Below are positions 190-52,142 of a stretch of DNA of 64,000 nucleotides, in pieces. The stretch spans positions 1-64,000 of the forward strand of contig JACCGJ010012831.1 of assembly GCA_013407085.1 (NCBI GenBank), in the 5' to 3' direction. The position numbers and the translations under genes are program-made. The number at the start of each line of letters is the position of its first letter. Position 1 is the stretch's first letter. The notes under the pieces are model-generated. The model saw nothing but the letters and a program-made list of their open reading frames with translations. It searched no databases and was not told the DNA's origin. The DNA comes from Atriophallophorus winterbourni (lineage: Eukaryota > Platyhelminthes > Trematoda > Plagiorchiida > Microphallidae).

Positions 190-2383
190 TTGAATTTGAT
201 TGAATATATCAAACGGAAACCCCCACTTGGGCGCAGTGATCATGTCTTCCTCCACTTCGACCTAGTTTACTGGGCTGATAAGGTAAATGCACGCTCTATT
301 TATTCATGTAAACGGACAAACTACGCCTTTCTCAACACTATCATTAATGAACAAGATTGGATTATTAACTCATCAACTTCAGCGGAAGATGCGTGGCTTC
401 ATTTTTCGACCCGCTTACAGCATCTGCAAAGCTTATGCACCGTTACCAAAGAAATTTCTATCAAAAGTCGAGGTTTTACTCCAATTCGTAGTGGCACTCG
501 AAAATGGATGCGGGAAAGAAATATTGAATGGGCTACCTATCTCAGTATGCCAACTCCTGCGAACTGGGAGCGCTATCGGAATCTTCGTAACAAAGTCAAT
601 TCGCTAGTTCGCGATGACAAACTCGCTTACCAGAACAGACTAACGAGCTCTTTTGCCATCAATCCCAAACGGTTATTTAGTTATGTGAACCGCTTGAGGT
701 ATGTTAAACCTGGAGTTACGATCCTTGAGACTCCACAAGGCTTGACCCAGGATGATGCAGCTGCGGCCGAAGCTCTGAAAGCTCATTTTGCCTCAATTTT
801 TCAATCTTTTTCGGGCAACATCACGATTCCTGTAAATTCATCCCCATCCCATTTCACTTTATCTGACATCGAATTTACACCCACAGTTATATATCGTAAA
901 CTAAAAAACTTACGGCCCACCAGTTCCGCTGGACCAGACGGTTTCCATCCCCGAACCCTGCGCGAATGTGCCTCCTCTCTCTGTTATCCCCTGGCTAATC
1001 TTTTCACGCACCTTTTTGCTAACGGCTGTGTCCCTCTTGACTGGAAGTGTGGATCTATCTCTCCCATCTATAAAAGCGGCTCTCGATCTCTCGTGTCTAA
1101 TTACCGACCGATAACATTACTCTCTGTTATATCGAAACTTATGGAATCTATTATCAGTGACTCTCTGATCCAGTTCATTGAAGGACTACACCTTCTGTCT
1201 GATTCGCAACACGGTTTCCGTCCCCGGAGATCGTGTGTGACAAACCTGATGCTCGCACGTGACCACTGGACATCCGAAGTCGACAAAGGGCGTGAGATTC
1301 ACCTAGTATACTTAGATTTCTCGAAAGCTTTCGATAGAGTCAACCATCGAATCTTGCTCCGCAAATTATGTTCTCTAGGGATTGCAGGTCAGTTGCTTCA
1401 GTGGCTTGAGAGTTATTTATCAGATCGCCGCGCATGCGTCCGCGTCGATGGATGTCTCTCTTCAAGTTTCAGCATTTCCAGCGGTGTCCCTCAAGGCTCT
1501 GTACTCGGGCCAACCCTATTCCTATCTTTCATCGATGATGTCGTTCAAGCCATTGATTCCCACACGCTCATGTATGCCGACGACATGAAACTCTGGAGTC
1601 ATCACATGTCAACACGACATCGATCAACTACAGGATGACCTCAATTCGCTTTACGTGTGGTCACTCGAAAATTGCTTACCGTTCAATACAGAGAAATGCC
1701 GCGTCCTTTCAACGCGTACAAACTCTAGCCCAAGCTATTACCTGGGATAACACCCAATTGAGACGACATCCTCAGAAAGGGACTTAGGCAATATCGTGCA
1801 GTCCAACATGTCAGTCTCGGCGACGTGCCTGAGAGCAGCCAATTAAGCAAACGCCATGCTTGGTCTTCTCAAACGTGTTTTTCGCAGATTTGAACCTCAA
1901 TGTTTGTCGCTTTTGCTCAAAGCATTCATTCGTCCACATCTGGAATACGCCGTTCAAGTTTGGTGCCCGTGGTTACTGAAGGACCAAAGACATCTTGAGG
2001 CTCCCCAGCGACGCGCCACAAAACTTGTCAGAGGTCTGGCCTCGTATCATTATCCTGAACGTCTTCGCTCCCTCAATCTCTTTTCAGTGAAATACAGAAG
2101 GCTCCGCGGTGACCTCATCCTCACCTACCGAATCCTCTCATCCACTGATCACCTTTGTAAACACATTCTCGTCCTTAATCGTGAAACTTCACATCTTCGT
2201 GGCCATTCACTCCAAATTTCATATCAACACTCACGCCTCAACTGTCGCAGGTATTTCTTTTCCCTCCAGATATGTACTCACTGGAATAGTCTACCCCAGG
2301 AAGTCGTATCCGCAACATCCGTAGAGGTTTTTAAACGGAGTCTGGACGCTCATTTAAATGATCTCCACAACGACATACCTTGA
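190..2383 (+). pseudogene. Element J1: CR1/Jockey-like reverse transcriptase, broken
   Basis: Decayed ORF2 of a plus-strand non-LTR retrotransposon, truncated at its 5' end in the EN domain. The only EN remnant is GRSDHV near 225-245, with the linker following. RT motifs in order: SAGPDG near 925-942, NYRPI near 1100, YLDFSKAFDR near 1301-1338, GVPQGSVLGP near 1480-1512 and the catalytic YADD near 1573-1584. A frameshift follows at about 1600-1640. Two in-frame stops interrupt 1640-1856, and an open C-terminal stretch (IRPHLEYAVQVW, then WNSLPQEVV) runs to the stop at 2383. The D-D-D triad is visible but the frame is broken, so the copy is dead. The family differs from the minus-strand CR1-like families in the window and matches J2 at 40.7-44.9 kb. 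Confidence 0.85.
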
Positions 2384-2748
2384 GGCCTTGTCTGTCCGAT
2401 TGCTGTTGTTCTCGGATAAGCACTGATCCACTACACCGCATCGCGTACTAGCTTCATTTTTCAGGTACGTTGTCCTCCTTGCCTTACTACTCCGTTCATT
2501 CCCTTCCTAACCACCTGTCCGCTTTACTTGTTTCCAGGTCTAACGCCACCACGATGCCTCCGTATTCTCCTGCTACCACCTCGCAATATAAGGAAGGCGC
2601 AATTCCAAAGCGAGTGTGGCTCGTTATAAGGCCTCCCCGTCCCCGTACAGATGACACTCACTATTTTATTTCCACCACACTGTACATACCAAATTGTGGT
2701 TATTTTTAAGCTATGCTTTTACACCACAATATACCATTGAAGCATTGA
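2384..2748 (+). other. Element J1 3' UTR (inferred)
   Basis: Non-coding stretch between the RT stop and the segment that is also found at 44.9 kb. It contains pyrimidine-rich tracts and no further ORF of note. The exact 3' end of J1 cannot be fixed by eye. Confidence 0.4.
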
Positions 2749-3126
2749 ACACTTCCGGACAATGTGCACAACAATTTGTAGGATATTAAAACGAATTTGG
2801 ATGAATACCTTGGTAACTTGTATTGCGAAGAACTTAATGAAAACAAAACATGCTGATTTACTTTATTTTTCGTTAGATATTTGCAAAAATCTCCGATGAG
2901 ACTAACTTTGCCGAACCAATCGAATAAATGTAGAATCAATTTTTCGCAATTTGGATAAATAATAGAAACGACTTGACATTCAAATACAGCAAATAATCAC
3001 GTTTCAAATGAAAATCAAAGGCATTCTGAAATCAATTACCTTTGTTCCATAGATGATTATATGTGCAAAGATGTAAATAAGTGAAAACAAAACAGAGGAT
3101 TGAATACACCGCCTAACAATCAAGTT
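2749..3126. repeat. ~380-bp segment shared with 44883-45263
   Basis: Closely similar to 44883-45263 over its whole length, from ACACTTCCGGACAATGTG to CAATCAAGTT. Both copies lie between the 3' end of a plus-strand J element and the (TTCAG)n tail of a minus-strand CR1-like element. No ORF or RT homology is visible inside it. Confidence 0.75.
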
Positions 3127-3299
3127 CAAGTTCAGTTCAGTTTGCACAGGACTGTATGTGGCTAACGAGCCAATCCAGCGTCCAGATTCCTTTAAGTGGT
3201 GGGCCACAGAAGAGCGTTTACCACTTCGAACAATATCTTTACAAATATCTTCTGGTATGAGAGTAATCTGGAATGCAACAGAAAAACTCCCCTCACCAA
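3123..3299 (-). mobile_element. Solo CR1-like 3' end, fragment 1
   Basis: Read on the minus strand this is only the last ~175 bp of an A-type element. It starts at half of the CTCACC stem-loop (3292-3298) and ends in a short (CTGAA)n tail at 3123-3142. It is homologous to 3324-3470 and 3498-3645. The 5' truncation falls at the stem-loop, which would fit RT drop-off (inference). Confidence 0.75.
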
Positions 3300-3471
3300 T
3301 AGTTCAGTTCAGTTCAGTTCAGTTTGCACAGGACAGTATGTGGCTGACAAGCCAATCGAGCGTCCAGAAATTCTTTCGGTGGAATGCTGCGGAGAAGCGC
3401 CCACCACTGCCAAAGGGTCAATCCTTTTTTTCCGTGTGGAACCTCTGATGGTCGTAGGACTAGGAGAATGT
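3300..3471 (-). mobile_element. Solo CR1-like 3' end, fragment 2
   Basis: Second 5'-truncated 3' end of the same family, with tail (AGTTC)n at 3300-3323. It lies directly between fragment 1 and the tail of element A, making three successive tails in one orientation. Confidence 0.75.
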
Positions 3472-7098: not shown

Positions 7099-9181
7099 TC
7101 ATGGGATGTAATCAGAGAATAACTTACCCCAGTCACGGTCTAAACCCTGCTTGGAAGTTGAGACGGAACTACAGGAGATAAGTTCTTCAGGGAGCTTGTT
7201 CCAGAAGTTGACCACCCTGAAGCTGAAAAAGTTTTTCCTAGAATCTAGTCGACATCGTTCCTTAGCGAGCTTGAGTGCGTGTCCGCGAGTGCCCAGCTTA
7301 GGACTTAAGGTAAATATGTCATCTGGATTAACGCCGCTTAAGCATTTCAAGATCCTAAAGCTTTCAATCAAATCACCTCTCAAACGACGACGCTTAAGAG
7401 AGAAAAGACCCAGAGCCCAAAGGCGATCAGCATAACGTTTCCCACGCTGACCCTCAATCATGCGTGCTGCTAGTCGCTGGACGCTTTCAAGTCGAATGAT
7501 ATCCTTCTGGTAGTGAGGACACCACGCCTGGACACAATATTCCAAATGCGGCCTGACTAACGCCTTGTAAAGTGGCAGGAACACGTCGGGATTTCTGCTG
7601 GAAAGCACCGACTTCAACCGAAAAAGCACATTGCGTGCACGTTGCGCTGCAACAGCGCATTGGTCCTCGCATTTGAAGTCAGCTCTAACTAGAACATCCA
7701 AGTCCTTAACCCGCTGTGTGGCATCAACGCTAATAGGAGTACCTGACACCTGGACTGTGATCTTGTCGACCAGAGCAGACAAGAGTTGGCGCTTATTGAG
7801 GTTCAGTGGGAGGTCCCAAAGTATGGACAAGTCAATGACCCGCTCGAGGTCGTGCAACAGAGTATCTTCATTCGTTGAACCAATGAACTTCACGTCATCC
7901 GCAAAAATGAAGCACGGGCACTCCAAAATAGGCGACAAGTCATCGATAAAAATTAGAAAGAGCAGCGGACCTAGCACAGACCCCTGAGGCACCCCACTTA
8001 TCACCTCCGTTTGGATCGACAACGTAGATTCTACTCGCACTCTAAAGGTCCTACCTGTCAGGAATGATTTTATCCAAGCAAGTAAACTACCCCGTATGCC
8101 TTTTGCGGCCAGCTTAGTTTCTAAAAATCTGTGGCTGACGGAATCGAAAGCCTTGCTAAAATCTAGGTAGAGCGCTTCGACCGGCTTCCCTTCATCCAAC
8201 CTTTTCGTAGCAATATTGAGGAAACTCAAGAGGTTAGTCAAACAAGACCTCCTTTTCAGGAATCCATGTTGAGCTACACTAAGTAGAGAATGCTGGCAGA
8301 GATGCTGGCAGATTTTGTCGCGTATAAGTCTTTCCAATACTTTCGAGACGATGCTGGTCAGGCTGACTGGTCTATAGTTACCAAGAATCGACCTGCAACC
8401 ACCTTTGTGTATTGGTAATACTATGGCTTCTTTCCACTCACGAGGAACCATTGCCGAGTGCAAACATGAATTGAAGAGCTCACATAGTGGTTCTGCAAGC
8501 ACTGGGGCGAGATTTCTCAACATAAAGCACCCTCAGCCTTGCCTCATTAAAGGACAAATCATCTAGTGCAGGGACACCAGATGGAAAGTTAAGCAACTCA
8601 GGCGGTGTGAGTAAAGAATTATCCCTACGCTGAACGCTACTGAAAAACTTTGAGAAGGCTGCCACCTTAGCTAGGTCACTAGTAGCTACTTGTCCATCCT
8701 CCAGTTTTAAGTCACCGATGTTTACCCTAGATTTTCCTTTAGATTGCGCGTAACTATAAAACCTTTTCGGGTTGGATTCAGCATCTCTGGCTAAGGATAA
8801 CTCAAACTTCTGTTTAAGGACACGCTGCATTTTGACACAAGCGTTTCGGGCGGTTCTGTAACGGACTCACGAACCAGATGTGAGCGATAGCCTATATTGC
8901 CTCCATAAGCGATCACGTTTACGAATAGAACGACGAACGCTAAGAGACCACCAGGGTGGCCGCTGGTGCTTATTCACGCATTGCAGTGGAGCATGCAGGT
9001 CTTGTAGCCCGTTAAGAAATCTGCAAATTCTGTCCCAGTTTTCAGTTACACTAGAATCGCTCGAGAACAGAAAGTAAGATTTTGATGACTGTAGAAGTAG
9101 GCCCCAGTCAACACGCCTAAAATTACGTCTAGGGCGCGCAAGAGGTTTGTGAAAACGCAACAGCGCTTCGAAGCCTAACAT
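7099..9181 (-). pseudogene. Element B reverse transcriptase (ORF2)
   Basis: The 474-codon stretch 8523-7099 is a continuous open RT core: LAPVLAEPL, NYRPVSLTSIVSKVLERLI, LYLDFSKAFDSVSHRF, SGVPQGSVLGPLLFLIFIDDL, FADDVKFIGS, RPHLEYCVQAWCPHYQ, FWNKLPEELIS, ending at 7099. Upstream, frameshifts near 8530 and 8870 separate it from the linker segments (8830-8480: YAQSKGKS; 9181-8867: RPPWWSLSVRRSIRKRDRLW). The catalytic D and ADD residues are intact. Confidence 0.9.
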
Positions 9182-9850: not shown

Positions 9851-10640
9851 CTAAGCTGAGTCGTGCTTTGCCCTCGGTCGAAGCACCCGGGGAAGCTGCA
9901 CGTTTTTTGGCGTACTGCTTAATGCAGGAGAAGCAATATCGCGTGCATCTTGCACGACGGTAATGGAACGTTGCCTAACTATTAAGCCCTCATTTATAAC
10001 ATGGGAGCTGCCACTAGAAAGGCTTGACGGACTTCCTACGCCATTCAAGTTAATGGAACGTTTCCTGACTATTGAGCCCTTATTAATAACATGGGAGCTG
10101 CCACTAGAAAGGCTTGACTGGCTTCCTTTTTCATTCAAACTAAGCAGATAGTCGTGCGCACCTGATAGCAAGATCATAGGTGATGCACGCACCGGTACGA
10201 TCGTTGTTGATGCAGTAGCGATCGGCTTTCCAGTCGGAGCTACAGTGAACTGCCTCCTATCAAAAGGAGGGTTGTCAGGCTTCACTTGGAGTTTTCCTAA
10301 AGTGGCGTTAGTTATGTGTTCCGCCTTAGACAAAAACACATCGCGATCCGCCTGAAATTTGAACTCGACTAGGATCGGTCGAGGACGGTTGTCCATCTTC
10401 CATCTACCCACACGATGAACTCGCACCGTGAGAGTGAAAGGCTTCATCCCAACCATGCGAAAAAGATCGTGGATACACCTGCGGTCCAAATCTCTACGAG
10501 ATTTGGATTCCTTGATGAAGGGCTCAGTACGATTGAAAACTAGAACATTACGAGTTCTATTTTTACGAGCCGGAGATGGGCCATGTAATGATTCATTTTT
10601 TTTCCAAAGACTGTTCAGCTCCAGAATAATTTGATCTATG
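9851..10640 (-). pseudogene. Element B ORF1, RRM-like middle and C-terminus
   Basis: Continues ORF1 after a frameshift near 10640. NVLVFNRTEP, then GMKPFTLTVRVHRVGRW and RPRPILVEFKF, resembles the RNA-binding (RRM-like) part of LINE ORF1 proteins, which coats element RNA. A Ser-rich 30-residue unit (SSLSSGSSHVINKG...) is then repeated in tandem, and the protein ends PRVLRPRAKHDSA. RRM assignment is by pattern only. Confidence 0.6.
9961..10140 (-). repeat. 90-bp in-frame tandem duplication in element B ORF1
   Basis: Units 9961-10050 and 10051-10140 differ at few positions and each encodes 30 residues (GSxSSLSSGSSHVINxG.IVRxRSI). The unit length divisible by three keeps ORF1 open. Confidence 0.9.
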
Positions 10641-11229
10641 GCATTGTAACCGACAACATTTGTATGTTGCTTTCCATTTTTACCGGAATAATAGTCTTAG
10701 CCTGCCTTCTTGGGGAGCCTGCTGAATTGGACACCATTCGTGAAGGTAGTCTAAGACTAGTAGGTGATTGTTTCACTAGTGTGACGTTAGCGTCGGTTAG
10801 CGGTGGTTTAGAGCCCTTGAACACCCGTCTTTTAGAAGACTTAGGTTTATTTTTTGCCTTGACAGTGGTGGATAGCACAAGAGGACGGGATAACTGGCTC
10901 GAATGTTTGGCCTTGTTACCCGCCGAAGCCCGCCCAGGGACTAAATTGGACCGCGCGACTGATGCATAAGTTCGGTCGGACAGGGATTCAGACGCACTAG
11001 CTAGCGTCAAACTAGATCGCCGTTGGTGGTACACAAATGCGGCTTCAGTGGCAGCCTTGTGACAATCACTGCAATACCACGGAAGCCTGCGGAATTTCGC
11101 ATAAATCCCATAGTTGGATTTATGTATAGCTGAGCAGCCAGGGTGAGCCCAACGCTTGCAAGCATTGCACTCAATACCTTTGGCTACTTGTTTGCCACAT
11201 TTCGCGCTAATACAAACAGTTTTATTCAT
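10636..11229 (-). pseudogene. Element B ORF1 N-terminus, PHD-like zinc finger
   Basis: ATG at 11229 is chosen because the finger follows at once and related copies start at the same place. Residues 5-55 give CISAKCGKQVAKGIECNACKRW (split here: C5, C10, then C19-x2-C22) with AHPGC and WYCSDCH, a C4-H-C3 arrangement typical of PHD fingers in CR1-type ORF1 proteins. A basic, Ser/Lys-rich tail follows. Copies of the finger occur at 24.7-24.9 kb (R) and 51.0-51.1 kb (G). Confidence 0.75.
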
Positions 11230-14731: not shown

Positions 14732-15739
14732 CGGTTGCATTACATGCTAACTGGATTAACTTAACCATGGAACAAGGTAACAATGGTTTATTTCAGTAAA
14801 GAAGCGCACAAGCTTAAAACAACCGCAGGATATTGCGGTGTTCAATAATGCAAGCAATAAGTGAAAAAATACGCGAATGTCATAAGAAGATCAGCCTCAT
14901 GGGATTTAATAATGATGTTCGTGGAGGTAAGAGTCAATCCTGTTTTTAGACACGGTTAAAGATTCAGGGTGTCCGATGCTTCAGAAGTAGCTTCATATGA
15001 AGTGAATGAAAGGTTGCATTTTTCACATCAATATATAAGTTTGCTGATGAAAATCCTTTCAATAGGTAAATGCACAACACCCGACGGTAATGAGTTTCAT
15101 AAGAAAATAAATGCGCACCAGATAAAGGCACCGTCAATTGTGATGGCAATCCGTATTCGTTTGTACTGTAACAATTGTACCGAATGCGCAGTCATATTTT
15201 GTTTCGTTTACACGTTGTTACAGCCAGACGAATTCAAATGGCGTGCACTCCACCTACCTAATCAGCTTAAAAATAAAACGGAACATTTTATTCCCAACTG
15301 TCACACCTTCTCACCTGAAAGCATGAAATGTTTCTAAAATTTGTCGACCGTGAGGGGTCCATTTCAGACGTTCTGTGTTATCTTGGTTGTGAAAACAATG
15401 AATACACTAACGTGTGTGTGTAGTGTAGATCGTGCGGATGGCCTAAGACATGCAATACTTGATAGCGTCGTATTCTTCTAAATCCATGTCTAGATTTCAC
15501 AACATGAGCTTCTAGCTTGTTGTAGCCTATTTTCCACTGTTACTAGCCTCACAGGACATAATCTTACTGTCTCGAAACTGCCAAAAACCAGTTGGGTGCG
15601 CAGGAATGTGAGCAAAACATTACTTTGGTTCATATAATATTGGTTTGAAAGCATTACATTGTTTACTACTTTGTAGCTAACCTTGAGTTATGTTCATGGC
15701 TAGAGCAGAACATCTGTTCTCTTCATCATATTTTGTTAC
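14266..15739. other. Intergenic, no recognised gene
   Basis: No RT or other domain is recognisable on either strand. It holds two (TA)n runs at about 14671-14728 separated by TCTT. The ~120-codon open frame at 14969-15337 has no recognisable motif and is probably chance. Confidence 0.6.
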
Positions 15740-28294: not shown

Positions 28295-28370
28295 TTACAT
28301 ACTTATTGTTCGGATGCGTCTTTGGCTTCGTTGTCGCGCAGTTTGATTCGTTGGTATCGGAAGTTCATTG
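28295..28370 (-). CDS. Candidate terminal exon of a small-exon gene
   Basis: Strong acceptor on the minus strand: a T-rich tract then CGATTGCAG directly before base 28370. In the phase set by the four upstream candidate exons (one base completes the split codon) it reads NELPIPTNQTARQRS and a basic run to a TAA at 28297-28295. Alternatively a GTATGT donor would end it at 28303, giving 68 nt. No poly-A signal was obvious nearby. Confidence 0.35.
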
Positions 28371-29658
28371 CTGCAATCGAAAAAATAAAATAACACTTTG
28401 AAGTAATAAACAAGCATACTACAGAACATCAACTAACTAGATCGCAATGCGAAAATTTCAGAATCGTAAAAAAACTAAACATGAAAACGATCAAGCATTG
28501 GGTGGCATGGGGAACACTAAAGTTAAACGGGAAAAAACTAAATAAAAACATATATTCCTAATTTGGTTCAGCATGGTCTCGCTTAAATGCACGTGAAGGG
28601 AAGAAAAAGTGTACAGGTAACAGTGGGAATAAGACTTAAACTAAGAAAACGTTAAGGTGAACCGATGAAGCCTGAATGCGTTGTTGCAGCGCACTCGATT
28701 GCTGGATTTAAACGGGTAACACGGCGCAGAAGATGAAGTTATCGAGTCCATTGAAATACATCATGTGAGAAGAGAACATTGACAATATCATTCAATGCTT
28801 GTATGATTTATGATCCTGATCCAGGCAAAGTGTCGCACATTCAAATACTGCACGCGGGCTAAGATACTGTCAAGTTGCCTATCCCTAGACAGATAGGAAA
28901 CAAAATAGAAATGGGAGTGAGCGAAACTCCCGCGAGTTTCACGATGCAGCTCACTACGATTGCACACTCGTGTACAATAGAGCATTAGGGTTATTTAGAT
29001 AACGATTTTTTTATTCAGAACTCCTAAATTACGAACCACCAATTGTATATGACGGATGAACAATGAAGCCGAAAAGAAACAATAGATGAATCTTAGCACT
29101 TTGGACGAAAATGTGGAAGACAGGCGCGAAGGTCTATCAGAGAAGTTCTCGTGGGTGTACTTATTGTGCCGGGATTGCAACGAATAGGTTACGGTACACG
29201 CCACGTAATACGATTCGATCCAAACCTACTCGATTCTGTAAACATGATTATTCCACAGATATTGTGGTGCTCACAGCACCATCACGTATACATCACAACT
29301 GGTTTCTGGCTGTTTGTCTTCATCAGGTGGACACAGTACGAGCAGGTTCAGTGAGCCTTGAAATAACGAAAAAGTATCAAAACAAGTTAGACTTTGTAGC
29401 CACCGTTCAATAGGGCACGTACCACGATGTTCAAACACAGAAGCACAGTGATTCCAGCTTAAGCGCTGAAGAACCTCATGGACGGCCAGACATTTAAGGT
29501 TTGAAGCGTGAGCCTAGGGCCATGACCTCACGAGAGTTGAACCTTCGATGAACTTAGCTAAATAGCTTTCAACAGGAGCTGAAAAAGGAACAAAAGAAAA
29601 ACATGCTGTTCTTTGTTGAACGGAATCTCTGAACAAAGGCAAACAAGTTAAAACTTAC
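28371..29658. other. Presumed intron; no recognised domain
   Basis: No RT or protein domain seen. A ~40-bp stretch at about 28856-28893 resembles 51593-51633 (GGGCTAAGA..CTGTCAAGTTG). The open frames here have no motifs. Confidence 0.4.
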
Positions 29659-29739
29659 TCTGACGGTGACTCTGATTGACTGATGCCGGCTATCAGAGTT
29701 TGTGATTCAGTGGGTTTCGATGCTTCCGCCTGAAGCGCT
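29659..29739 (-). CDS. Candidate 81-nt phase-1 exon (copy 2)
   Basis: On minus: acceptor TTTACCCTTTCTACAG, 81 nt, donor GTAAGT. Only one of three frames is open, the phase-1 frame, reading ALQAEASKPTESQTLIAG and ending ESPS with two bases left. It is a diverged duplicate of 31270-31350, same length, same splice sites, same single open frame. Flanking intron sequence is also duplicated (29637-29845 vs 31248-31450). No domain recognised. Confidence 0.5.
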
Positions 29740-31269
29740 CTGTAGAAAGGGTAAACGTTGCATATACACGTCTTACATTATTAATTGTATGCCATTCAAA
29801 CCGACGTAAACATCATTAGTGGATATGGAGTTAGTATGATGGTGGAGACAATAATGGTAAATAGGAGTGAAACAATTGAAATCAATGAGAGTGATTTTGT
29901 CACAAACAATGTTAGACTCTGAAGCCATTGTTTAAAATGGTTCTTACAACTAACAAAGTTATTCATATACAGAATAAAAAAGTGATTCCCGACCGAGCAC
30001 TGATTTAATAAGCCGTTTTTCGGTTAATTTTGACGCTATCTGTGGCCAAATGCATCATTTTTTTGTATAAACTGAGACTAATTTTGGACGCGCAATTTTG
30101 AACAAATTACGAGGTACCGGGAATGGTTGTCCCGAAACTTTTTGTTGCGGTATTTACTAATATACTGGATCATGTGTGGACATTATCAATCAAGACGGAC
30201 AAAAATCATCGTTCGGTCGACAAATTGTAACTTGATGTCGAAACCTGTGTGTCAATTTTTGGTGAAATTATTGTAACTATTGAAAATTCGTTTCGATGAA
30301 TAAAGCAAATTTGATACGCATTATTTATTTATTATAAACGACCAATATATTGTGGTGCTCACACTATCTTAAATGTTTACATCGGCTGGCCAGATGGCAG
30401 AATGTTTGATGTGACGAGAATCAACAATTGATGAAAATGTAAAATGAAAACCGTTACCTAAGGCAAAATGTTTCAAAACAGTAATCGCCGTGGTGGCACA
30501 TAAAGCTAGGGTACGATATTTCGGTAAGGGAGCGATCAGAGAGCTCAGATTGCATACAAGGAACGGTTAATCTTTGATCTCAGTGTATTCGATCACACTG
30601 CCTTCAGAGCCGGAATAAAATAAACTGGCAATTACCTAGTAGTGACTAAACTAATAGCGACCAATGAAAGAAGCATAGTGTGTAGCGAAGCGATCAAAAT
30701 GAGAACACTTTTCATTGATGTTTATACCACATACGAATGACCATCGCCATGATCAGAATATTATAGTATCAAGCGTATTATGGAACAATATTGTTTGCTC
30801 GCGAAAGTTCGCTACACGTTAGCTTGCGGATGGATGGAACAGTCACAGAACACAGGCCAGGTACTCAAAACAAGAAGCCGTAATTGCGCAATGAAGAACG
30901 TTCGTATGATGGCATCGGATCTTAAAGAGAATGTAAGTTGTATATGCAAATGTTTATTAACAAGAAGCCTGCTGAAACCATGGAGTAAGCGCCATTTCCC
31001 ATACCACATCGAATGAAAAATTTCAGTATGATACCGAACGTATAAAACATCTGCTAAGAAAATTTGAAAGGCCTTGGCTTTGCTTCACAGTTTCCCTAAT
31101 CGTGATCAACGTAGAGTGAGACAACGGACAAGAACTTCCACAGAGCGATGGAAGGCGTAACCCCGTAATCATATAACGCATACCACCAGACCGTAAAGTT
31201 TAGAAGCGTAGGCCTTGACCATGTAGGGGAACAGAAACTCAGATCCAAGGCAAACAAGTTTAAACTTAC

Positions 31270-31350
31270 CCTGTCGGTGACTCGTATTGACTGGTGCCGG
31301 CTATCGGTGTTTGTAAATCCGTGGTGTTAGATGCTTCCGCCAGATGCGCT
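31270..31350 (-). CDS. Candidate 81-nt phase-1 exon (copy 1)
   Basis: On minus: very good acceptor (TTCTTTTACTCTTTTTACAG), 81 nt, donor GTAAGT. It reads AHLAEASNTTDLQTPIAG then TSQYESPT in the only open frame. It pairs with 29659-29739 as a tandem exon duplication ~1.6 kb apart. The peptide is Ser/Thr-rich. Confidence 0.5.
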
Positions 31351-31837
31351 CTGTAAAAAGAGTAAAAGAAGCATACACATTTCTAACATTATTTGATGTA
31401 TGCAATTCAAACAGACGTAGCCATAATTAGTATGTGGAGCTAGAATGATAGTTCGATCAATCAACATGAGTAACAACGGAAATAACAAAAATTTATTCAA
31501 TATTCAACTTATTTCAAGAGTGGAATATCTTCGAGTAATGTGAACAAATATGTTGCCGGTGCCTTGGCACTGGATTTTTCTGTTTGTTGTCCCCATGGAA
31601 ACTCGTCGAAATGGTCGGGGACCACTTTGATAACTATACGTCGAAATGCTTAATAAATGATGATCTTTCAAAACATTGCATCTTTTGCTTCAAAATAACT
31701 TTCCGTACTTAAAATCACGCTAGTATGTTTAATAATACGTTGTTATGCGTTACTAGATTGTCAATCACTCAGTGAGTTCAACGGTTCCAAGAGTGCAAAG
31801 TAGACCTCCGTGCAGTACATCGACAGATTTTGAATGA

Positions 31838-32167
31838 TTACACCTAAAAAGAAAGCAGGGTCGACATGAGCAGAAGCAAAACGATGTACAGTTCAACTCA
31901 CTCAGTGTAGACAGCTGTTTGGTGGATAACTTTATCGACATCATTGCTGAAGAAAAAACGATAATTGTGACAGATGATAAATTCACAACGGAGAAACGTG
32001 TGATTACTGACGAGGGCGAGCAAAATGGTTGCATAGAAATTCACTGGGTTCAGAAAGCTGCACTTCGCATGAGTACTAAATTACGTTTGAACAGTTTTAA
32101 TTATAATCAAGGAGTTCGAATACGGATTGCTGAAGTGACCTCATTTCATTCCGACAACATGATCTAG
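31838..32167 (+). CDS. Hypothetical 110-codon open frame, unrecognised
   Basis: Open from just after a TGA (31835) to TAG. The central part DNFIDIIAEEKTIIVTDDKF has amino-acid composition like a real protein. It contains no clear ATG near its start, so if real it would be an exon. It lies opposite the presumed intron of the small-exon gene. No family recognised. Confidence 0.2.
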   Translation, partial: LHLKRKQGRHEQKQNDVQFNSLSVDSCLVDNFIDIIAEEKTIIVTDDKFTTEKRVITDEGEQNGCIEIHWVQKAALRMSTKLRLNSFNYNQGVRIRIAEVTSFHSDNMI

Positions 32168-32615
32168 CGAGCTTCTGGATGTGTAGATTGCATTCTCCGG
32201 CATGCACCTATCTGGGATTATGACATACGCTTCTAATAATTCGCTCATCATACATGCTTCTTCTTTTAATAAGATACACGTCTCGATACAATTTGCTACG
32301 CATCTTTTTGGTCTCCAGATTAGTTTTCAATGATGATAATGCGATTAAATTTTATTCATTAACAAGGAAGAATGACAAAGCTTTGTTCGAAAAGTTACGA
32401 AGTTCAGCTTCAGAATATTGACGAAAAACACAACGAATGCTCTACAAATAACATATTGAAGAAAAAATATTCGCAGAAAATGTACACATAATATCAACGA
32501 AATTAATTGCAGCGTATTTAGCTGTTACCATATGAAACATAGTGGTTCGAGTTAAAACTCGTTAGGTAGACAAATAATTATTAAGATATCCTAATTTTTT
32601 CCAAACACAACTTAC

Positions 32616-32666
32616 TTAGCTGTGGAGCCGCGTTGTGGGTCGCATACATTCGCCTCAAGTATCCTT
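32616..32666 (-). CDS. Candidate 51-nt phase-1 exon
   Basis: On minus: acceptor after a pyrimidine-rich CGCCTCTCTGTAAG (weaker than the others), 51 nt, donor GTAAGT. The phase-1 frame reads RILEANVCDPQRGSTA and leaves two bases (AA) that join the first base of 31350. The length is a multiple of three. The upstream in-frame TAA prevents a longer exon. Confidence 0.38.
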
Positions 32667-33399
32667 CTTACAGAGAGGCGCTTGTCGAACGATTGAGGTT
32701 AGTGTTTCGTTGCTATTGTTATTTTTCGCTCGTATGAAACATGTGCAAGTGCCCAGTGTTTATGTACTGCGCAGATAAATAAACTTGCGAAAGGTACTCA
32801 GCTAAACGCGCATATCTGTTCAGGCCTGGGCAACCTGGTTGAATCTTAGCTCACGTGCAGTCTTATTGTGCGACACTATGCCTGGATTCACACTTTTGAT
32901 TTCATTCATCCATTCACTAGTCAGTGCAAACCGAAACCAAAATTTTGTAAACTATATCGTTGTCAAATAACATACAACACAAAGTCGTATGTAGTTAAAA
33001 TACAAAAGGCTGTTGTTGATGCACATTTGCTTATTTGACGATGGACTCTTTTTATCCCTCTGCTTATCTGCTTAACCACCTTCAGACCTTCGATTCACTA
33101 GGAAAATGTGTTTACCCACTAATCACAAAAATTTATGGAGCATTATTCCATAGCTGAGATTACTAATAATTTTTATTCTATATAGTCGTTCTTATTCGAT
33201 TTCAGAGAGCAATATTACTGGATCGGCGCGGTTGCTGTCAGAAAAACTAATATACGCTCATTCAAGTTAACTGCTTTTTTGTACAGACAAAAGCACATGG
33301 ATATACATACAGACAAAGATCCTATCCAGAAATAAGTGAACATAGACGTTATCACGATATATTTTAGTGATAAGCATCAAATGCCACGACTAAACTTAC

Positions 33400-33456
33400 T
33401 CGGAACACGGCTTTTGCGCATTTTTACCTTTTTTCTTCCTTTGTTTTTTGGATGTA
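33400..33456 (-). CDS. Candidate 57-nt phase-1 exon, Lys-rich
   Basis: On minus: acceptor TTCACATTTTAG, 57 nt, donor GTAAGT. The phase-1 frame reads TSKKQRKKKGKNAQKPCS and leaves GA. It is the most 5' exon found. No signal-peptide exon could be identified between here and the RT remnant at 33950. Confidence 0.38.
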
Positions 33457-38640: not shown

Positions 38641-39700
38641 TTGCACTTCAGGAAAAAACTACACCACAGAAGTTGAGATTGAGGCATATGGCAGCCATTT
38701 AATCACATCTGCTATTCAAGCAAGCTTTCAAATCGAAGCTCGGCAAAAGAATTTAACCAAATTCAGGATGTATGCATGAAAATAGCAGCCTCATCAAGGC
38801 GAAGTGCCGCACAGCAATGGACTGCACTTGGGCTAACTATAGATGAGAAATCAATTCAGGACGGCGTGAGCTGCACGGCACAAAAGTATTGCACGCTTGC
38901 ACATTCGTGTAAATATAGCATAGGAAACCTGGGGATCACTCAAAAATGGCATACGCTGTCTCCACTTGTGATCCAACAAAAGCTGGAACGAGCGAAGGGG
39001 TTTGAAGCCGAGAATTATATAATGACTGCGGTACTGAGTGAGGAGCGGTCAGCACTTCTGAAGGTAAAACCAATGCCAACAGATGAAACTTTTCTCTGCC
39101 TTTAAAGATAGAAAATAGGTCCAGCAAACCCGTATGCGATATGCAAATGACTATGGGACGAAAAAACAGAATCTAAATGATTCTGATACTGATAATTTGA
39201 TTCGTATGTATGATTTGATCGAAAGAGCCATTGATATAAATAAAACTAAATCAGCTCCTATTTAGTCACTACGCGGTAACCAGATTGTCGACTACATGAA
39301 GCAGATGGAAAAATAGGTCGAGTACTTCTTCATCTACTCTAGATACAGCACGTTTTTACCACGTGCATTTAGCGCCAAAACAACCAATAAATAACCAGAT
39401 ACTGCATCTACTCTTGATGAACTTAATTGAACGGTCTACATGAATTAGCTAACAGAATGTATCCCGAACCAGTGTGGACCGCATGGCGAATTCTACCGTC
39501 AGCATGGCCTTCTACCCGAGACAATTTGAAGAAAACTGTTGGAAAAAGCACGGTATTATGCTTTGCTTTATATGGTTAACGAAGTTATTCTACTTCTTCG
39601 GAAGTTAGAGGCTTTTCAAAATGATCAATCTTATAGGCTACCAAGCGCTAAACGCCCAATATTTACTTGCCAATGAATAGCACGACACTTTTAAACAAAA
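38641..39700 (+). other. Decayed sequence upstream of element S
   Basis: An open frame of 109 codons at 38776-39105 (KIAASSRRSAAQQWTALGLT...) has no recognisable motif. After 39105 all frames are stop-rich. It may be the EN/linker part of element S, but this is not demonstrated. Confidence 0.3.
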
Positions 39701-51344: not shown

Positions 51345-51630
51345 TTGAATGCAGCTAAAATCCAGATTTCCTTCGACGGTATGCGGTTGAGCACCATGCA
51401 CTCTGATATTAAGTACACAGTTCGTACGTTTCACACGTTCTTGTTTCCGGATATCTGGAAAGTAAGGCGGGGGTTCTCTTCACCAGCACGGTGAGAGGTC
51501 ATCCAACAATGCAATAATGTGCGTGAACAATGTATGATTTATGAAATCACTAGCCTAGTCGAGGCAAAGAGAAGCACAGTCATAAACTGCAGCTGGGCTA
51601 AGACGCTGTCAAGTTGCTCAGGCCTAGACA
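51345..51630 (-). mobile_element. D-like 3' UTR remnant
   Basis: Homologous to 13990-14265, including the stem-loop at 51480-51494 and the flanking GTGCGTGAACAATG block. Only the 3' UTR is left. The tail is degenerate. Confidence 0.65.
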
Positions 51631-52142
51631 GATATGAGTATCAGTATCAGTATCACAGGGCGATAGTCGACCAAGTCGAAACCAGTGCCGAGATTCTTTC
51701 AGAGGTGTGCTTAAAAACAACCGCCACTACCAGGATTGATTCGTAAGTAACACAGGCGTGTGTAAATGTGAATGGAAGATGGAAGAGGTCCCATCACCGA
51801 AAGGTGAGAGAGTTATGCATGTTGCATGTCCAATCGAATGAACGATGGACAGCAGTTTATTTCCACAAATACGAAAAAATTAAAATGAAACTCTTTTTTG
51901 TGTTTCAAAATGTTTTTCGAATACTTTTGTGTTTTTTGATCAAACAAATGGAGGCATTAAGTCCCAAGGGTAATGCTCCGGGAAGAGCACCTGCCACCGT
52001 TCGTCCAACCCATGTTTGAACGCGATTACTAAAGTTGCCATGATTAGTTCTGTGGAAATTGAATTCCACGCGTTCACTATACGGATGCTATGGAAGTGTG
52101 TTCGAGCCTGGTGTTCTGTTTACTTAGCTTATAACTGTGCCC

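Follow-up and report, generated by a model that had tools for sequence, protein, structure and literature searches.

Five short minus-strand segments between positions 28,295 and 33,456 of a 64,000-nucleotide (nt) stretch of the fluke Atriophallophorus winterbourni (contig JACCGJ010012831.1, positions 1 to 64,000; this whole stretch is hereafter called the window) raise two questions: are they exons of a gene, and is that gene a micro-exon gene (MEG) like those of schistosomes, as the original prediction proposed? The segments are numbered E1 to E5 in their order of reading (Table 1). With a probability of about 0.55, we regard them as including real exons of a small, fast-evolving and duplicated gene family in a retrotransposon-rich fluke genome. 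E3 and E4 belong to this gene-family reading, E5 probably does, and E1, E2 and a further 45-nt segment possibly do. The micro-exon label is a separate matter and found no support.

E3 and E4 had been described as duplicates that stay open in the same frame, and this was borne out. They lie in a duplicated block of 226 bp with 80.5% identity, of which no third copy was found within the window, and the locus thus holds two homologous candidate exons of equal length and phase. Identity between the two blocks is 79.4% upstream of the exon, 81.5% within it and 85.4% downstream, so the exon is not better preserved than the sequence on either side of it within this pair.

The block around E4 was then used as the query against the fluke's own assembly (537 Mb, 15,840 contigs), a search that finds loci carrying E3/E4. 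At least eight matches were obtained at four loci, each with an E3-like and an E4-like pair. Besides the window copy (W), these are copies A and B, in tandem about 10.55 kb apart on a contig labeled C732, and copy C on contig C12301. C matches A at 99.3% of 7,031 aligned positions and may be an allele or an assembly duplicate of it; A and C being nearly identical, W, A and B count as the independent copies.

In all four copies, E1 to E4 and the 45-nt segment align without gaps and stay open in one shared frame, and E3 and E4 also retain their AG acceptor, GTAAGT donor, length and frame in every one of them. B has lost other splice sites, with an altered E2 donor and no acceptor at the 45-nt segment. 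The E5 acceptor is kept in W, A and B, and the length of E5 differs by one base between W and A/B. The original reading of E5 as a terminal exon holds for W, where it runs to a stop, but not for A and B, where a symmetric 69-nt segment is followed by GTATGT. E5 is thus at best terminal in W, and the window copy may be non-functional or may end differently.

Splice strength was assessed with generic splice matrices over the 1569 candidate internal exons of 15–150 nt in the window, and E3 had the best score of all. Among the minus-strand candidates of at least 15 bits in the repeated unit, 4/4 survive in A, 3/4 in B and 3/4 in both; the three that survive in A, B and C are E3, E4 and 29578-29532. 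Plus-strand candidates at the same threshold survive in 2/3 of cases in A, 1/3 in B and 1/3 in both. The E1 acceptor lies under the cut-off and is inadequate by this generic scoring, and that of E2 is also poor.

Table 1. Coordinates of the candidate exons, duplicated blocks and locus copies (window positions unless a contig is named; A, B, C and W are copies of the locus).
Feature	Position (strand)	Description	Remarks
E1	33456-33400 (-)	Weak 57-nt candidate exon	Acceptor 0.6 bits; gapless and open in A, B, C
E2	32666-32616 (-)	Weak 51-nt candidate exon	Rank 636/1569; gapless and open in A, B, C; donor altered in B
45-nt segment	31946-31902 (-)	Extra symmetric candidate exon, same frame, absent from the original prediction	15.5 bits; acceptor lost in B
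E3	31350-31270 (-)	81-nt symmetric candidate exon	Rank 1/1569; AG, GTAAGT, length and frame kept in A, B, C
E4	29739-29659 (-)	81-nt symmetric candidate exon, duplicate of E3	Rank 28/1569; kept in A, B, C
E5	28370-28295 (-)	76 nt to stop, read as terminal in the window	Acceptor 8.6 bits; symmetric 69-nt segment with GTATGT donor in A and B; C ends before E5
Block around E3	31452-31229 (-)	Duplicated block	80.5% identical to E4 block
Block around E4	29843-29618 (-)	Duplicated block	At least 8 matches in own assembly, both window blocks included
Copy W	34620-27998 (-)	Repeated locus unit in the window	Co-linear with A, B, C
Copy A	C732:4811-10347	Counterpart of W	
Copy B	C732:14138-20099	Counterpart of W	
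Copy C	C12301:6091-1594	Counterpart of W	Ends before E5
1.08-kb segment	31084-30004 (-)	Within the predicted intron between E3 and E4	W only; flanks nearly adjoin in A, B, C
Weak start-exon candidate	38500-38436 (-)	ATG followed to 21 codons, with two leftover bases; phase-compatible	Questionable signal peptide; present in all four copies

As a chain, the five segments are present with the lengths, splice sites and single compatible open frame first described. AG precedes each of them and GTAAGT stands directly 3' of E1 to E4, whose lengths of 57, 51, 81 and 81 nt are divisible by three, as is the 69 nt of E5 in A and B. Joined together, they read through 114 codons to a stop in a single frame; both other frames contain stops. 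Each segment begins with the last base of a codon, and the predicted introns (733, 1265, 1530 and 1288 nt in the five-exon model) split codons after the second base; the exons are therefore of phase 1 in the sense of the General Feature Format (GFF), as had been stated, but the introns are of phase 2 by the usual convention. All four minus-strand GTAAGT motifs in 28-34 kb are used by the chain, and the 45-nt segment fits it in the same frame. No stop-to-stop reading of at least 120 codons was found between 28.0 and 34.5 kb. Counted over the whole window, GTAAGT is more frequent on the minus strand (22 occurrences) than on the plus strand (8).

Splice-bounded segments readily form long open chains, however, so that only the duplication and the comparison between copies carry weight. 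At a lenient penalty, compatible chains span the whole window on both strands, with 86 and 84 exons. For the minus strand as a whole, the chain score lay above that of every one of 150 shuffles at each of four penalties, whereas that for the plus strand was reached by 7, 23, 45 and 45 of 150; transposon coding sequence may explain this difference between the strands. Symmetric same-frame candidates of 37-90 nt with at least 15 bits fall in the chain region in 3/4 of cases over both strands, a count in which two of the three are the non-independent E3/E4 pair and for which the frame and length range follow the choice made in the original prediction. A 48-nt candidate exon at 34016-33969 was rejected, being broken by indels in the copies. 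The original observation is thus confirmed for the segments, their frame and the E3/E4 duplication, and not for a five-exon chain in excess of chance.

Divergence between the copies is lower in the candidate exons than around them. With E1, E2, the 45-nt segment, E3, E4 and 68 nt of E5 pooled, W and A differ at 16/383 positions compared with 349/5077 elsewhere, and W and B at 22/383 compared with 403/4265. When segments matched in length to the exons were placed at random, the joint P for divergence in A and B together with indels was 0.020 for the five listed exons and 0.022 for E3 to E5 alone (separately, 0.155 for A, 0.034 for B and 0.779 for indels). The lower divergence and the survival of splice sites support the exons without proving them. 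Changes by codon position in the shared frame stand at 7:14:3 (n = 24; multinomial P 0.021 against an even distribution), a pattern reached by 0.9% of random segment sets, which were drawn from W, A and B while the observed count also includes C. Such a three-base rhythm, common to separate exons, favours a common frame; the excess at second positions is unusual and fits either replacement-driven change or chance at this sample size.

The main rival, which we consider a serious possibility although short of even odds, is a non-coding segmental duplication, in which intergenic or intronic DNA was copied together with its retrotransposons and the splice-like sites and open frames are coincidences kept by recent ancestry. 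A series of results weighs against the gene-family reading, and this rival draws on many of them. The best chain score of the region was reached by 66, 64, 60 and 50 of 1350 dinucleotide-shuffled 6.5-kb pieces at four penalties, a rate at which chance would supply roughly one such region per window when both strands are counted; the five-exon chain as such is weak evidence. The copies have diverged by only about 7 to 9%, so that frames can persist by inertia. Under random placement, the divergence of the five listed exons has a P of 0.114 in A and 0.053 in B, and their indels are no rarer than elsewhere (2/10 exon-copy pairs, both involving E5, versus 2.4 by chance; P 0.565). Divergence between W and A is also patchy, with 4/549 at 29450-28901 versus 65/349 at 28800-28451; a range from below 1% to about 19% across 29450-28451 suggests gene conversion, mosaic copies or mixed histories, and such patchiness can mimic conservation. 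For E3 versus E4 in the proposed frame, the ratio of replacement to silent rates (dN/dS) is 1.04 in the window copy; it is lower in the other copies (0.74 in A, 0.60 in both B and C), and these lower values count for the gene-family reading. Few changes underlie these ratios. Between copies, replacement:silent counts over the six segments, with E5 cut to 41 nt, are 14:1 for W-A, 18:2 for W-B and 9:3 for A-B, and dN/dS here, as in W, is close to 1 or higher. Since nearly all exon changes between copies are replacements, purifying selection on a protein is not apparent from these few changes. Neutral-drift simulations kept the frame and a splice score as high as that of E4 in 12% of cases from E3 and 3% from E4. 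The 114-residue reading had no homolog up to E 10 in a search that reaches close relatives only (five candidates shared words with it), it matched nothing in Pfam or PDB up to E 1, and no convincing start or signal-peptide exon was found for the chain. What speaks against a segmental duplication of non-coding DNA is that E3 and E4 stand out in the unit, with sites, length and frame kept in all copies, and that the candidate exons have diverged less than their surroundings.

Two other explanations keep the exons and change their nature. A further point against the gene-family reading is that in W the E3/E4 differences are most constrained in frame 0, where 8/15 are silent (P 0.005 for that frame, 0.031 over six frames) and which one stop in each now closes; this would be expected of decayed exons once read in that other frame. 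Frame-0 stops occur, however, in all six candidate exons in every copy covering them, and the silent share drops to 5/15, 5/12 and 5/12 in A, B and C, which makes decay highly improbable. The other explanation is a true MEG like those of schistosomes, in which the small exons and the exon for the signal peptide would have escaped notice. MEGs have been defined by having most of their coding sequence in symmetric exons of about 6-36 bp together with a signal peptide (PMC5825161, PMC8293314), such exons making up about 80% of the coding sequence (PMC5825161). Symmetric same-phase exons, a locus rich in transposable elements, copied loci, replacement-rich change and internal exon duplication all recall published descriptions of MEGs (PMC8293314, PMC5825161), and a weak phase-compatible start exon is present in all four copies. 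On the other hand, exons of 36 nt or less contribute 0/343 coding bases to the five-exon model, which may lack further exons, and short symmetric candidates in the chain's frame are not enriched in the region (1 versus 2.2 expected at 11 bits). With neither a convincing signal exon nor a homolog in the close-relative search, we hold a true MEG to be improbable.

The gene-family reading can be set out as a sequence of events. A block with one 81-nt exon and its flanks would have been duplicated first, and the whole locus would then have been copied, in tandem and elsewhere. As the exons share one phase and have lengths divisible by three, either member of the pair could be kept, skipped or repeated without a frameshift. 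If the locus is transcribed and spliced as its sequence predicts, the E3/E4 pair would add a repeated 27-residue unit rich in Ser, Glu, Thr and Pro to a probably disordered protein, which might be secreted and might vary through alternative use of the pair. The encoded units (e.g., ALQAEASKPTESQTLIAGISQSESPS in E4) are polar and abound in Ser, Thr, Glu and Gln, and a disordered repeat region is their likely product. If expressed, the locus would illustrate how symmetric-exon genes expand through duplication of exons and loci in a fluke genome rich in retrotransposons, and it would bear on the question whether schistosome micro-exon genes arose from longer symmetric exons. Should it not be expressed, it would serve as a useful warning about splice-bounded open chains.

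The original prediction found no signal peptide or known domain, and no convincing signal exon or Pfam match came to light here either. The start-exon candidate at 38500-38436 is the only phase-compatible one kept in all four copies; it is weakly hydrophobic (hydropathy about 2.0-2.2, with a core broken by Arg and Lys) and has a poor donor that scores 2.8 bits in W and 4.7 bits in A, for which reasons it was not accepted as a signal exon. Another candidate, at 44540-44486 and present in W and C, is hydrophobic with a strong donor but leaves the wrong phase and was likewise not accepted, and two overlapping phase-compatible candidates at 32251-32208 occur in W only. No RNA families at gathering thresholds and no tRNAs were detected in the window. 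No relatives were confirmed in viral contigs (one exact pattern and one protein-derived scan) or in prokaryotic genome contigs (one scan).

Many of the window's long readings resemble proteins of retrotransposons without long terminal repeats (non-LTR), CR1-like and RTE-like. A Pfam scan of 10 readings found reverse transcriptase in 4/10 and one PHD-finger match below the curated cut-off. Among the best 120 of 7833 matches to a CR1-like protein, the best-scoring named entries were birds at about 40-45%, and Dicrocoelium dendriticum reached 56%. For an RTE-like endonuclease, the named entries included two flukes, Trichobilharzia regenti (60%) and Heterobilharzia americana (65% over 70% of the query); between these two ranked a snail, Physella acuta (57%). 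These relatives suggest a digenean fluke, and not specifically a schistosome. The E3/E4 block shares this neighborhood and is likewise multi-copy; it differs from the non-LTR retrotransposons in occurring at four loci (a lower bound from one assembly search), in having no reverse transcriptase reading and in belonging to a longer co-linear duplicated unit. With at least eight matches at four loci and no Pfam match for the 114-residue reading, the locus shows neither the high copy number nor the element proteins of a transposable element. A stretch of W at about 34.9-38.1 kb carries RTE-like readings, and none of A, B and C has such a stretch at that place.

Other repeats were noted in the window. 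A short interspersed repeat occurs in both orientations at 28796-28985, 32798-32916, 38769-38921 and 51531-51653, with several more on C732 and C12301. A diverged repeat flanks the E4 block on both sides (29260-29391, 29804-30003 and 30344-30479) and is found once elsewhere, at 15511-15622. Positions 192-3414 are 98.9% identical to C12301:14272-17491 and are probably a recent retrotransposon copy; copy C of the E3/E4 locus lies on this contig too. The 320 positions at 44680-44361 are identical to C12301 while adjoining 200-bp bins differ by 2.5 to 9%, which may indicate a conserved or a recently converted patch. The reverse transcriptase reading at 7099-8532 has relatives filed under the bacterial metagenome-assembled genome (MAG) names Paraclostridium, Cetobacterium and Aeromonas, which looks like contamination of the MAGs with animal DNA. 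A tandem repeat with a 90-bp unit in 1.9 copies lies at 9961-10127, within an open reading at 9851-10696 among the retrotransposon readings.

Compared with the MEGs of schistosomes, the locus is alike in its symmetric exons of one phase, its exon and locus duplication, its setting rich in transposable elements and its replacement-rich divergence. It differs in that its candidate exons measure 45-81 nt with none of 36 nt or less, and in having no convincing signal-peptide exon and no sequence relative found; known MEG proteins showed no relationship in the close-relative search (five candidates, none with E up to 10). A wider range, 3-81 or 6-81 bp, is given in PMC10526429 and would admit these exon lengths, although the commonest size there is 15 bp. 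The micro-exon-type label is therefore not supported, for want of exons of 36 nt or less and of a convincing signal-peptide exon, and what survives of the original interpretation, with moderate support from the related copies, is a gene with symmetric same-phase exons and exon duplication. Such a gene may work in a MEG-like way, its symmetric exons varying a protein, without being classed as a MEG. A bolder idea, which we consider unlikely, is a micro-exon-like system outside schistosomes: a tandem fluke gene family with same-phase symmetric exons, internal duplicates and replacement-driven change, whose protein variants would arise from duplication of exons and from copying of the locus next to retrotransposons. 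Another close comparison is with genes that carry duplicated symmetric exons, with which the locus shares two homologous candidate exons of equal length and phase and homologous flanking intron sequence. Duplicated symmetric exons are a product of exon duplication general to eukaryotes, and the predicted E3/E4 gene does not differ in any essential way from such genes.

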